From: Antedon bifida
Lineage: Eukaryota; Echinodermata; Crinoidea; Comatulida; Antedonidae
Assembly (NCBI GenBank): GCA_963402885.1
Contig: OY727096.1
Span: 6,510,001-6,574,000, forward strand
Direction of reading: 5' to 3'
Length of the DNA stretch: 64,000 nucleotides
The position numbers were made by a program, and so were the translations under genes. Position 1 is the first letter of the stretch. Each line of letters opens with the position of its first letter. The notes beneath the pieces are model-generated. The model did not search any database and had not been told where the DNA came from. It worked only from the letters and a program-made list of their open reading frames with translations. This document shows, piece after piece, positions 20,820 through 59,625 of this stretch.

Positions 20820-22970
20820 CGTGTTTTAATATGTGTCTTCTGATCAGTTTGCTGATTGTTAGATATAACTGAAGAACTTGAACAGCCTGTTAAATTTTTA
20901 CTTTGTTAAATATGGCTCATACGATCAAATAAAACGTACGGAATAAATGGACAAGGTGGTTATAGCTATTCAAATTACTACCAAACATTCTCTGAAGAAA
21001 ACGTTAAAAAAATAAGTACTTCATCTTTCAATGATGAAGGAATAATACATATGCCTGGACGAGGATCAACTTACACAGATATTTCAATGACAGTGAATGT
21101 TAATCAAACTTTCAAAGACTTCAAAGGGAGAACTTAAAATACCGAGTATAGAAATAATTAGTGGTGAAAATCCAAACTTTGAACTGGTGGTAGAGAGCAT
21201 CTTTTGTTGTGTAGCTAGGTTGGAGTTGGTCAAAGTAGGCCTACGTATAAATAGATATTGAATGGAAACGTTCACAATACTGGCACAGAGACATGCTTTC
21301 ATGATTTGTCTGTTGGTATTTACAGTGTTACTGAAAATCACGTCAGACTTTCGGCAGAATTTGAAGTAGCCATTACACAAACTGGATCGGTACCAATAGA
21401 CAAAATGATAACTGCTAACCCAGATCCTACATCTATTCAGCACACGTCAGATACTGTAGAATTTGAAGTAAACGATATAACAGAGATACATGCAAGCTCT
21501 TGGAATGAGGGTAGACTTATGCCAACAGACAAAATGATAACCGCTAACCATCATACAGCTAGGCCTATAACCTTAGATTCTGTAGAATTTGAAGTAAACA
21601 ATATAACAGAGACAAGTTATTGGATAGAAGTCAATTGCGATCAAGATTTAAAAGATTTTAGCATTATAATACTTGTACTCTTGTTGTTTGTCGTCATAGT
21701 TGTATTGCTTTATGTACTGAAAAGATTCCACGATGAGAAGTCTGGAATGAAACACGACAAAACAAATGTAAAGCTTCGTAAAGCCGTATATTATGGAAAT
21801 AAAGATGACGATGAAACTTCAGCAAGTAGACAAGCAGAGGCTGTGAAACCAAAGGCAGCAGACAATGAATCTTTCAAATCATTTTCAAATCTTTTACTTT
21901 CAAATAATAGTAAATCAGCCGAACAATCTGAAGATATATATTATAGAATTGCAGATGAGAAAGATCAATCTTCAACAAGGAGACATGAGAAAGCGGTAAG
22001 ACCGAATCAAGCAGACAACGAGCCGTCCAGATTTAAAAAGGAATGCACAAAAGAAGAACCATCTGAAAACATATATTATGTCATTAGAAACAGTGACAAT
22101 CGACTTTCAGCCAATCGACAGGTGAATACTGCAAAACCAGAGGAAGCAGATGAATCCTTCAAACCCAAGACGAATGAAAATACGAATGTGAAACAATCTG
22201 AAGACATATACTATAGCATTGCAGATGATGATTATCAACGTTCAACATATCATAGTCAGCCAGACATTGCAAGACCAAATCAAGCAGATAAAGAATCAAC
22301 TAAATTTACCGAAGAAACTACGAAAGTGGAACAATTTGAAGACGAATATTATATGGTTGTTTTTGATAATGATCACCATCAACCTTCAGCAAATAAAAGA
22401 GCAAAAGCTGTTACAGAAAAGCCACAATTTCCGAAAGAACATAATACAGAACATACTGAAGATGTGTATACCAGTATTAATGAAAGTATACTGACGAAAG
22501 TAGTGAGACAGCAAGAAGACAATGAACCAGTTGAGTCTATGAAGAAAAGTAGGCCTACAAAAGTAGCACAAATTAAAGATGTCTATACAAGTATTGATGA
22601 AAGTGATGAGCCTTCAACAAGTAGGCTGACGGAAGTACCGAGACCCAAGCAAGAAGTCAATGATCAATTTGAGTCTGCGACGAAAAGTAGGCCTACAAAA
22701 GTAGCACAAACTAAAGATGTATATACAAGTATTGATGAAAGTGATCAGCCTTCAACAAGTAAACTGACAAACGTAGTGAGACCAAAGCAAGATAATGAAT
22801 CTACGAAGGAAAGTATTAAGGTAGAACAATCTGAAGGTTTAGGCCTATATAGCATTAAAGATGAGGAAGCAGATAAGGTACATACCTCGCAAAATGTAAC
22901 ATATAACACAGAACGTTTTGAGCTCTTCACAAATGAATATTACGGCTGTAGCTTCAATGTGACCAATTAA
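20820..22970 (+). pseudogene. receptor copy A: decayed ectodomain, intact stalk-TM-tail ORF
   Basis: From about 20820 the signal-peptide and Ig regions are recognisable but ruined: the start ATG corresponds to ATA, and a TGA follows within 20 codons. The reading frame then opens at 21255 (first complete codon run begins with TTG, not ATG) and stays open for about 570 codons to 22970. It encodes the end of the membrane-proximal Ig-like domain, a stalk with three SDSVEFEV-type repeats, a TM helix (DFSIIILVLLLFVVIVVLLY) and the longest tail of the cluster. That tail has nine tyrosine modules (cores YYGN, YYRI, YYVI, YYSI, YYMV, YTSI three times, LYSI) and the terminal box FTNEYYG. Either the ectodomain was lost recently or the tail is spliced to something not visible. 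No signal peptide remains in frame. Confidence 0.8.
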
Positions 22971-23061
22971 TCCTAAACTGCGAAAAAAAGAAATAGAGGA
23001 TAAAGACGACACTAGTTGTACAGAACCATGATGATGATGATACAATATTTTAAAATATCAT

Positions 23062-23280
23062 CTTAAAGCGTGGTTCCCACTAGAACAACGCAACGTAGCG
23101 ACGTATCGACGCAAACTGCTGTATTGCGTAATCACAAGTGGGAACCAAAGACGCAATTGTGCTGCAAACATCGCAGGTTTGATTTCACGCAGGCGGGGGC
23201 AAACACAATTATTGGAAGGGCATTTGCTTACGTTGCGTAGATTGCGTTACGTTGCGTCGCTAGTGGGAACCAAGCTTAAG
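23062..23280. mobile_element. MITE family A, best-preserved copy
   Basis: Inverted ends aaagcgtggttcccactag and ctagtgggaaccaagctta with gacgcaacg repeats; the interior shares cacaattattggaagggca with 8325-8537. It starts about 90 bp after the stop of receptor copy A. Confidence 0.85.
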
Positions 23281-24230
23281 TAAGAATGCGGAACAATAAT
23301 AACTAAACTGACATTTAAATGTATTCTCTCAAAAGAGATGTGAATAAAGAAGATAATATTATTCTTGGTTTTTTTTTAGATACATGTCCAATATCCTCGA
23401 AACTGATGTGATTAAAGGCAAACATTTCAGTTTCTTTTCGTATCATAATTATATTACTTGGCCATATGTAAATTCGATAACGTGATTGTTCGAAATACGA
23501 CCGTTTCGATGATCGAAAACGTTTATTTCCATATTTTAACTATACATCGTTTCAATACAAAGCAAGTTGTTAACAAAGTTTACTAAAAATTAAATTACTG
23601 TAATATGTATAATTCGATTTCTTTGAAAATGTGCATTAAAAACAAAATTTAAACTATCGGTCCATTCGAATCTAGCTCGAAATTTGCTTGTTTTTCATGA
23701 GAAATTACTAACGAAGTCTTATGATTTCTTTTGAAATCAATAATAGGCTTATGACGTAAACAATTTTAATGCACTTATATTACTATGTGCGCATGAATGA
23801 CCGATATATCGATGAAACTAGTTGAAAAAAGGGATCCTATTAGAAATGTGTAAAAACAAAATGTATGTACTTTTTATTGCTTATTGTTTATCACGCTGTG
23901 TTTATGAAGTAAAGCTATATCATCAATAAAGAAAGAAAATATCTACTTTCTATTTTGATTGCATGCGAAAGTGTGTCTTTATCATGTAAAAATCTATTGC
24001 AATTTAGTTCTATATTTTACATACATTTTGGGTCGATGGTCAAATGTCGTACTTCCGGTCATTTTGTCGTAAAAATGTTTCATTAAATATTACTGCAGAT
24101 CACTGTATGATTGTGATTATAATAAGAATTGACATTATACAATAACTAAGCTGACATATGCATTGAGAATGTAATGTGTGTACTGTAGAGTACGTCACAA
24201 AGGGCGCGGCGGCATGAAAGACAACAATAA
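23281..24230. other. flanking DNA between receptor relics
   Basis: No coding sequence. 23941-23985 carries the shared upstream motif (ctttctatt...catgcgaaagt) described separately. Confidence 0.5.
23941..23985 (+). promoter_or_regulatory. shared upstream motif of receptor genes (copy 1)
   Basis: ctactttctattttgattgcatgcgaaagtgtgtcttt-type block, alignable with 33434-33480, 35078-35120 and 38427-38470. Conservation among otherwise diverging flanks and the fixed position upstream of gene starts suggest a cis element, or simply retained duplicated flank. Confidence 0.35.
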
Positions 24231-57973: not shown

Positions 57974-58175
57974 AAGTCGCGTGCTACAATGCATAGTGAT
58001 ACCGGACCGACAGACAGACAGACCGACAGACAGACAGACAGACAGACAGACAGACAGACAGACAGACAGACAGACAGACAGACAGACAGACAGACAGACA
58101 GACAGACAGACAGACAGACAGACAGACAGACGAACCGACCGACATAGTGAACTATATAGTTCACGCGACTAAAAA
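57974..58175 (+). mobile_element. MITE family D with expanded (GACA)n core
   Basis: Ends aagtcgcgtgctacaatgca and agttcacgcgactaaaaac; between them ggaccgaca...gaccgaccgacatagtga. Same frame as the 41159 copy, but the GACC core has become a long GACA run. Confidence 0.8.
58005..58132. repeat. (GACA)n microsatellite, about 30 units
   Basis: Uninterrupted GACA apart from one GACC near 58021. ORFs over it (TDRQ and CLSV repeats) are artefacts. Confidence 0.97.
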
Positions 58176-58929
58176 CGGTGTGGTATAAAATGAGATGAGA
58201 TGAGATGACTAAATATGCCTATAGGTAATAGGTAAATTTTTATAATTTTACGTTTCTAGTATTTTTATTCAACTTCAGAGTTTAATTTTCATGCCATAGG
58301 AAAAACCACCGTATACCCATCATCTTTTTTCACCTTCTAATTTATACTACCTAACTACTGAAAAAAAGTCTTCCTCGTTTTTATAACAGAATTTTGCCAA
58401 ATTTTATATTTGACCATTTTAAGGGAAATTAATGTTTTTTCGTCTTGATTTCTATTACAAATATTTGATTTATGTACAATTAACCAGATATTATATTTAA
58501 AATTCATGCCTGTACCTGAGCTTTAAAAGTAAAAAATAACATGTTCTTACTAAGCTCCGTGTAAATATCGTACCCGTGCAGACATTTTATTAAACAAAAA
58601 AAAAAAGATTTTTTCTTATCAAAACCTTAATACGGACAGTAAAATAGAAATATTACCTTACAAAAAAACACATGTATTAAAGAAAAGGATGGTAATAATC
58701 AAAAATTGATGATTGCCCCATGACCAATTAGTCATACGGAAGACTGAACATATTGGGTTAGAGACAGGGAAATAATGTGTAACATTGGAAGTAGGAAGGA
58801 AACTGCATGTAAGCGGATATGTAGATCGATTGTAGACTTTGTACATATAACATTACACCATACCATATTTGAATATCATTCAATTTTTTCTACCAACACT
58901 TATTGGCAAAAATCAAGGCATTTCTTGTG
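58176..58929. other. flank before relic H
   Basis: Contains the recurring motif at 58731-58760 (gtcatacggaagactgaaca, tattgggtta), as in front of the intact genes. No coding sequence recognised. Confidence 0.5.
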
Positions 58930-59625
58930 TTTAACATATTGTGTATTTTGTTGGAGTTGATCAAGACTTATTGGACATTAATTGGAAACATTGCTAGTAG
59001 GCAAGTTGCTGATTGAGTAATAGAAATTAGCATACTTTAGATTCAGTAAAATTCCAAGTAGGCCAAGTGCCAACAAAAATTAACTCTGCGGTAACCAGCA
59101 ATTATCGAACCTATACTGTACCAACAAAATGTATCTCATCAAACGATGTATCTCAACAGCTGAATCAAGATCTAAAAGATCATAAGCATCATAATACTTG
59201 GAATCCTGTTGCTAGTTGTTATTATTGTATTGCTGTATGTACTGACAAGATTCCACGTTTATAAGTCAAAAACTGAAATGAAAAATGACAAAACAGACGA
59301 ACAACGAAAAGACGGCATTAAGGATGAAGATCAGCCTTCCACAAGAATACAGATAGATACATTGGGCGCAAAGCAAGCAGATAAGGAACCTCTCTCACAG
59401 AAAGTAGGCCTAAATAGTAAACACACATATCAAACAGAACATGTTGAGCTATTTACAAATGATTGCTACAGTGGCTTCAATGTGAGCAATGAATCCGAAC
59501 AAAATGAAAAGGAGTATGCCTACGTGCAACCCATCGGACCACCGCAGATGATAGATAGTAATAGAATATATAGACCTGCAGATGAAAATGATGATGTTTA
59601 TGAGTATGTAAGTAACCATGATTAA
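58930..59625 (+). pseudogene. receptor copy H: degenerate Ig domain, stalk, frameshifted TM, short tail
   Basis: tttgttggagttgatcaaga then ttggacattaattggaaac is the remains of domain 3. The stalk continues to about 59180, where one extra base shifts the frame just before the TM (ATILVLLYVLT-type helix read from 59209). The tail has the box FTNDCYS and a VYEYVSN end, most like copy B. Broken 5' half and frameshift make it a relic. Confidence 0.75.

Follow-up and report, generated by a model that had tools for sequence, protein, structure and literature searches.

What do the tandemly repeated, partly decayed genes in a 64-kb stretch of the genome of the crinoid Antedon bifida encode, and what might their products do? 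The stretch, here termed the window, comprises 64,000 nucleotides of contig OY727096.1 (C9:6510001-6574000 in our numbering of the 315.6-Mb, 27-contig assembly). An original prediction, made from the letters alone, had proposed a tandem cluster of undescribed immunoglobulin (Ig)-like receptors. We find that the array belongs to a large germline family of single-exon type I receptors of the immunoglobulin superfamily (IgSF), which probably signal by themselves through modules resembling half of an immunoreceptor tyrosine-based activation motif (ITAM), termed hemITAM, and probably serve innate immunity or self/non-self recognition. The receptor architecture is well supported, and the analysis demonstrates gene structure, approximate family size, relation to the IgSF, motif enrichment, and fast loop and tail evolution.

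A BLASTN self-search of the window with ten unit sequences gave 18 matched stretches within 20784-59622. Every one lies on the forward strand and none on the reverse, and the reversed window gave no matches. We grouped these stretches into 11 family loci (copies 1 to 11, Table 1) and five very short remnants; four loci are intact single-exon genes and seven are damaged or fragmentary. The tandem arrangement and the four intact open reading frames (ORFs) named by the original prediction were both recovered, while its count of at least twelve copies is reached if the remnants are included or copy 2 is split, whose span may represent two copies (24237-24314 and 24761-25735). Judged by hydropathy only, all four intact copies have the predicted signal-peptide-like N-terminus and one strongly hydrophobic transmembrane (TM) segment; copy 8 contains an additional weak hydrophobic stretch at residues 221-239. 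The two or three Ig-like domains expected per receptor correspond to a third Ig-like region that is present in copies 6 and 8 and absent from copies 9 and 10.

The extent of the family had been understated, as about 97 loci are spread over 18 places, the window among them, on contigs C1, C7, C9, C12, and C14. This total merges two genome queries with ORFs from C9 and the window: the first query gave 88 matches and the second, a distant family member, 78, with 80 of 158 and 62 of 403 candidates scored, respectively. It is approximate, with intact and broken loci mixed, neighbors at most 250 bp apart merged, and a few split genes maybe counted twice, and is probably an undercount. We read 30 fetched loci (20 + 10) and the window closely. 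Among 52 family ORFs of at least 300 aa, 40 combine a signal-like start, a TM segment, and a tail of more than 40 aa in one frame; three of these 40 tails reach the end of their locus (L009:8340, L014:8239, L019:3436) and thus represent minimum lengths. In a tree of 41 members, grouping mostly follows genomic place, with exceptions such as a C7 member within the C12 group. Two ectodomains about 20 kb apart (L012:971-2428 and L014:820-2277) are almost identical, with a synonymous divergence (dS) of 0 and a nonsynonymous divergence (dN) of 0.001, and represent either a duplication or conversion of very recent date or a segment duplicated in the assembly.

The absence of introns, the spread over five contigs, and a Ty3/Gypsy element inside the array would also suit a domesticated or captured viral or mobile glycoprotein family spread by a mobile element. 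We regard this origin as highly improbable: a single viral-contig scan with the copy 8 ectodomain gave one pattern match and no relative, the profile of the ectodomains finds its matches among animal IgSF proteins, most members of the tree group by genomic place, and the Gypsy frame lies on the other strand, between copies 9 and 10.

Membership in the IgSF is well supported by the ectodomain. The domain 2 core, Cys...Trp...GxGIFFyC, contains C181 and W209 in 41 of 41 members, G242 in 98%, and G244 and C249 in 100%; ten core cysteines, all of which fall inside the three Ig-like regions, are present together in 36 of 41 members. A 31-member profile matches NCAM2 modestly (E 0.0012, profile positions 69-272 of 330) across the three domains, and the Pfam family Ig_3 is matched at E <= 1 by 13 of the 31 members (best 2.1e-5). 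Structure prediction of the copy 6 ectodomain, proposed with the original prediction as a check, gave fair confidence for domain 3 only, which forms an Ig-like sandwich with Dscam1 among its best fold matches and CD22 included; the refuting outcome named at that time, predicted structures lacking an Ig fold, was not obtained. Several observations weigh against this assignment. Y_Y_Y, which is not an Ig family, is the commonest Pfam match (17 of 31 members), none of eight window proteins or pieces scanned passed the Pfam cut-offs, the fold matches of domain 3 also contain PKD- and FN3-type sandwiches, and the models of domains 1 and 2 are of low confidence (predicted local distance difference test scores of 46 overall and 48.6 for domain 2 alone). 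Searches of a protein database that includes nr/UniRef animal proteins, with window members as queries and candidates required to share 5-mers, returned no match at E <= 1 for residues 1-430 of copy 6 or for the alignment of the four copies (A1, 7999 candidates scored). No characterized family, non-immune or other, was matched in these searches.

The best solved relatives by profile, NCAM2 and CEA, are adhesion molecules, and Dscam1 stands among the best matches of domain 3. Together with a tail box, FxNxxY, of the type known as a phosphotyrosine-binding (PTB) or endocytosis signal, these relationships raise the alternative of a gamete, cell, or neural adhesion recognition family whose tail tyrosines control adhesion signaling or endocytosis. 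We consider this unlikely, since function does not follow from a profile or fold match, and since about 100 loci, decayed copies beside intact ones, and enriched half-ITAM modules are more typical of immune receptors.

Among the four intact copies, the BC and FG segments of domain 2 are the most variable (mean pairwise difference 0.76 vs 0.31), and of 106 slid placements only the observed one reaches this variability. Over 15 independent close pairs, these loops changed at 18.8% of nonsynonymous and 20.8% of synonymous sites, compared to 5.3% and 13.6% in the framework without the C'-E segment. Pooled ratios of nonsynonymous to synonymous change (pN/pS) are 0.82 for BC and 0.99 for FG, so the loops evolve fast, yet not above neutral family-wide. 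Several points weigh against the recognition reading: positive selection is not supported across these pairs, synonymous change is raised in the loops as well, variable loops are common to most protein families, and we placed BC and FG by motif after the variability profile had been seen. Between copies 9 and 10, nonsynonymous differences in BC + FG (15 of 57 sites) are far more frequent than differences in the flanks (41 of 1264 sites, p 2e-9; this flank figure ends at 48500, and including the whole, more divergent 3' flank changes it to 64 of 1554). Nonsynonymous change in domain 2 of this pair is not significant when set against the synonymous sites of that domain (p 0.39), and with a loop pN/pS of 0.82-0.99 over the 15 pairs we do not claim family-wide positive selection. 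Synonymous divergence in domain 1 of the same pair is high (14 of 50 sites), which suggests segmental exchange between paralogues.

The sequence (D/E)xxYxx(I/L) is half an ITAM, and hemITAM receptors signal via single copies. We counted 48 such modules in 31 of the 40 cytoplasmic tails, compared to a mean of 4.3 and a maximum of 12 in shuffled tails; the reversed motif occurs four times in tails, and forward and reversed motifs are equally frequent in ectodomains (10 and 10). The 48 do not represent independent events, since the tails are related to one another and certain modules recur (31 distinct 7-mers). Nine of the 40 tails lack any module, which weighs against the hemITAM-like reading. 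With Val permitted at +3, the 52 modules have Glu at -3 in 39, Ile/Val at -1 in 34, Tyr at +1 in 37, and Ile at +3 in 43, giving the dominant form E-[DE]-[IV]-Y-Y-x-I. The hemITAM-like modules of the original prediction are thus present in their general form and not as DGYxxL, the form in Dectin-1 and CLEC-2; a few modules contain DG one residue further from the Tyr (DGVY, DGQY, DGEY). The predicted FxNxxY box was likewise found, in all four intact window tails and 13 times in the 40 tails (0.3 in shuffles). When each window tail was compared with 1000 shuffles of itself, the four [DE]xxYxx[IL] modules of copy 1 (0.32 expected) were reached by none, the two of copy 6 gave P 0.021, and the single ones of copies 9 and 10 gave P 0.042 and 0.028; copy 8 has none. 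Classical ITAM pairs (two YxxI/L, 6-12 residues apart) are not enriched, with one in 40 tails vs a shuffled mean of 0.5. Only six of 40 trimmed TM cores contain a charged residue, near the edge, so signaling through a partner adaptor is not suggested, and we rejected DAP12-like charged TM partners.

The same tyrosines might instead recruit phosphatases or adaptors rather than Syk, making the receptors inhibitory (with ITAM's inhibitory counterpart, ITIM) or adaptor scaffolds (LAT-like), alone or mixed with activating members. VVYHDI of copy 8 fits an ITIM, while EHVYHDI at that place in copies 9 and 10 does not; of the 40 tails, 12 match the ITIM pattern, and the repeated EYVNL-type modules of the L020 tail also fit YxN docking. 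The 18 ITIM-pattern matches stay within the shuffle range (mean 8.5, maximum 19), 16% of shuffles yield the copy 8 motif, and most matches involve the same tyrosines as the half-ITAMs, and we hold this alternative to be rather improbable. A division into paired activating and inhibitory receptors was rejected, as the ITIM matches are not beyond shuffles. In the L020 tail (L020:1405-3642, reverse strand), the repeated modules are (D/E)EYVNL-SRRF-like and agree with the half-ITAM as well as with the YxN docking motif.

Tail length changes fast via in-frame repeats. Internal repeats with periods of 20 to 52 aa occur in 9 of 23 tails of at least 110 aa, and otherwise near-identical receptors differ widely in tail length: 561 vs 248 aa at an ectodomain dS of 0.03, 116 vs 369 aa at 0.07, 71 vs 248 aa at 0.10, and 75 vs 370 aa at 0.13. 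In the 138-nt repeats of the window, the module Tyr of copy 1 is Phe in copies 4 and 6. Comparison of the latter two gives a dS of 0.07 in the distal tail (81% aa identity) vs 0.68 in the proximal tail, marking another mosaic. Four tails of other loci consist of in-frame minisatellites (L012:5457-8144, L035:52-2247, L034:2362-4239, and L017:6956-8722, with units of 31, 28, 28, and 20 aa); nearly every unit of the amplified L012 and L035 tails has a Tyr, but not a half-ITAM.

Given the family size, the mixture of intact and decayed copies, and the motif type, we infer a role in immunity or in self/non-self recognition. In domain 2, BC and FG would be the natural ligand-facing loops. In the simplest model, a Src/Syk-type kinase, for which E-[DE]-[IV]-Y is a suitable context, would phosphorylate the solitary acidic-x-x-Tyr-x-x-Ile/Leu modules; SH2 proteins such as Syk may then dock, with a ligand-joined pair of receptors supplying two half-ITAMs, as in hemITAM receptors. 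The FxNxxY of some tails may bind a PTB adaptor. In-frame repeat expansion would partly set module number, and signal gain might thereby change quickly between near-identical receptors. The role would most likely be innate recognition, of microbes or of self/non-self, on coelomocytes or epithelia.

Parts of this design are familiar. CLEC-2 and Dectin-1 also use solitary acidic-x-x-Y-x-x-I/L modules and not ITAM pairs, but they are C-type lectins with DGYxxL, whereas the crinoid proteins are IgSF members, sometimes with several modules per tail. Vertebrate paired receptors of the leukocyte receptor complex (LRC), KIR, LILR, or Siglec type follow the same logic of clustered germline IgSF genes with tyrosine tails; they are multi-exon and carry ITIMs or DAP12-linked ITAMs. 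The nearest published design we found is that of the fester co-receptors (FcoR) of Botryllus schlosseri, a large clustered type I IgSF family with long tails bearing hemITAM, ITIM, or bare YxxI/L/V motifs and birth-and-death evolution (PMC12065747). FcoR proteins there comprise a V-Ig, a sushi, and two C2 Ig domains in 520-610 aa; many are paired with FF genes, and FcoR is alternatively spliced (PMC12065747). The crinoid family shares the large clustered type I IgSF organization, long tyrosine-motif tails, and birth-and-death evolution and differs in its two or three Ig-like domains, single exon, and tandem module amplification. Sushi was absent among the 25 listed of 40 Pfam families over 31 members, and the FcoR layout was not found; among ORFs of at least 150 aa in the window array we saw only this family and Gypsy, a list that multi-exon partners would escape. 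In the Hydractinia Alr family, divergent IgSF genes for single-pass proteins lie in clusters rich in pseudogenes; their IgSF membership was confirmed by structure prediction, and Alr1 and Alr2 are reported as polymorphic allodeterminants (PMC11067881). Clustering, divergence, and decayed copies are common to both families. Crassostrea gigas CgIgIT2 is likewise an invertebrate IgSF TM receptor with a tyrosine activation motif, but has five Ig domains together with an ITAM of the classic type (PMC11999971), unlike the two- or three-domain crinoid receptors without enriched ITAM pairs. Searches of open-licence full-text literature listed no paper that presents this family in its title or at the start of its abstract.

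Table 1. Family copies and other features of the window (window coordinates).
Feature	Position	Strand	Description
Copy 1	20784..22991	+	domains 1-2 decayed
Copy 1 open frame	21258-22970	+	570 aa; partial domain 3, TM, long tail richest in Tyr modules within the window: EDIYYRI, ENIYYVI, EDIYYSI, EDEYYMV, EDVYTSI, KDVYTSI (twice)
Copy 1 tail repeat	22484..22792	+	138-nt in-frame tandem repeat, 2.3 units
Copy 2	24237..25735	+	remnants of domain 3 and domain 1, followed by open TM and short tail; FTNDCY
Copy 3	29283..29742	+	remnant of TM and tail, in part 95% similar to copy 2
Copy 4	30630..32471	+	part of domain 3 with TM and long tail; interrupted frame
Copy 4 tail repeat	31945..32245	+	138-nt tandem repeat, 2.2 units, module Tyr to Phe
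Copy 5	33656..33892	+	tail fragment, one IIYIDI module
Copy 6	35250..37661	+	intact, 803 aa, three Ig-like regions; approximate borders: signal peptide 1-22, domain 1 ~23-117, domain 2 ~127-235, domain 3 ~232-312, TM 375-407; long tail with three [DE]xxYxx[ILV] modules and FRNEFY
Copy 6 TM segment	36372..36470	+	by hydropathy
Copy 6 tail repeat	37214..37511	+	138-nt tandem repeat, 2.2 units, module Tyr to Phe
Copy 7	38574..40161	+	three-domain; in-frame stop 38975-38977, frame change in tail
Copy 8	41826..43436	+	intact, three-domain, 536 aa from ATG (540 aa in ORF list, from TTG at 41814); short tail with VVYHDI (ITIM-like), FTNECY, YLQP
Copy 9	46421..47812	+	intact, 463 aa, two-domain; short tail with EHVYHDI and FLNECY
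Copy 10	55145..56506	+	intact, 453 aa, two-domain, sister of copy 9
Copy 11	59014..59622	+	TM/tail fragment, open frame; FTNDCY
Short unit-like stretches	34173-34199, 44136-44211, 48586-48615, 57315-57344	+	downstream of copies 5, 8, 9, and 10
Further short remnant	56946	+
Ty3/Gypsy gag-pol	50129-54202	-	long open frame; reverse transcriptase region shares 75% identity with a Littorina saxatilis protein
5S rRNA-like	4905-5024	-	62 bits, divergent-looking; possibly a pseudogene or a 5S-derived short interspersed element
GACA microsatellite	58005-58131		~32 units
Open frame leaving the window	63053-64000	-	315 aa, RG-rich C-terminus, no Pfam match

Copies 9 and 10 are parts of a segmental duplication with the Gypsy element between them, and the short unit-like stretches may be what is left of older units that lie within the duplicated segment. 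Elsewhere in the assembly, the mitochondrial contig C27 (15.8 kb, containing COX1) has AAA at conserved Asn positions of ND1 (LAETNRTPFDL, ELVSGYNVEY) and ATA at an expected Ile (ERKILGY), and AGA is read as a residue, not a stop. A mollusc source, considered on account of the Littorina match of the Gypsy element, was set aside on the strength of these AAA codons. Read with translation table 9, COX1, COX2, and ATP6 are open on one strand and ND1 and the start of an ND2-like frame on the other (names assigned by eye), suggesting an echinoderm/flatworm-type code, likely that of echinoderms.

Vertebrates and tunicates are known to have clustered Ig receptors whose tails are of the ITAM/ITIM type, and cnidarians have clusters of Ig allodeterminants. 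For the crinoid, we tentatively propose that a single-exon founder may have given rise to an innate repertoire of about 100 self-signaling Ig receptors, in which loops diversify and in-frame minisatellites tune the signal by repeat number between paralogues and perhaps alleles. Since the genes are intronless, genomic DNA suffices as a template for amplifying entire receptors, which makes the array directly testable. If it is true, the repertoire would be comparable in logic to the vertebrate LRC, and the same clustered-receptor logic would have arisen, or persisted, in another deuterostome phylum. Near-identical receptors that differ in tail length and Tyr number offer a natural experiment in which receptor output can be related to phosphotyrosine site number.

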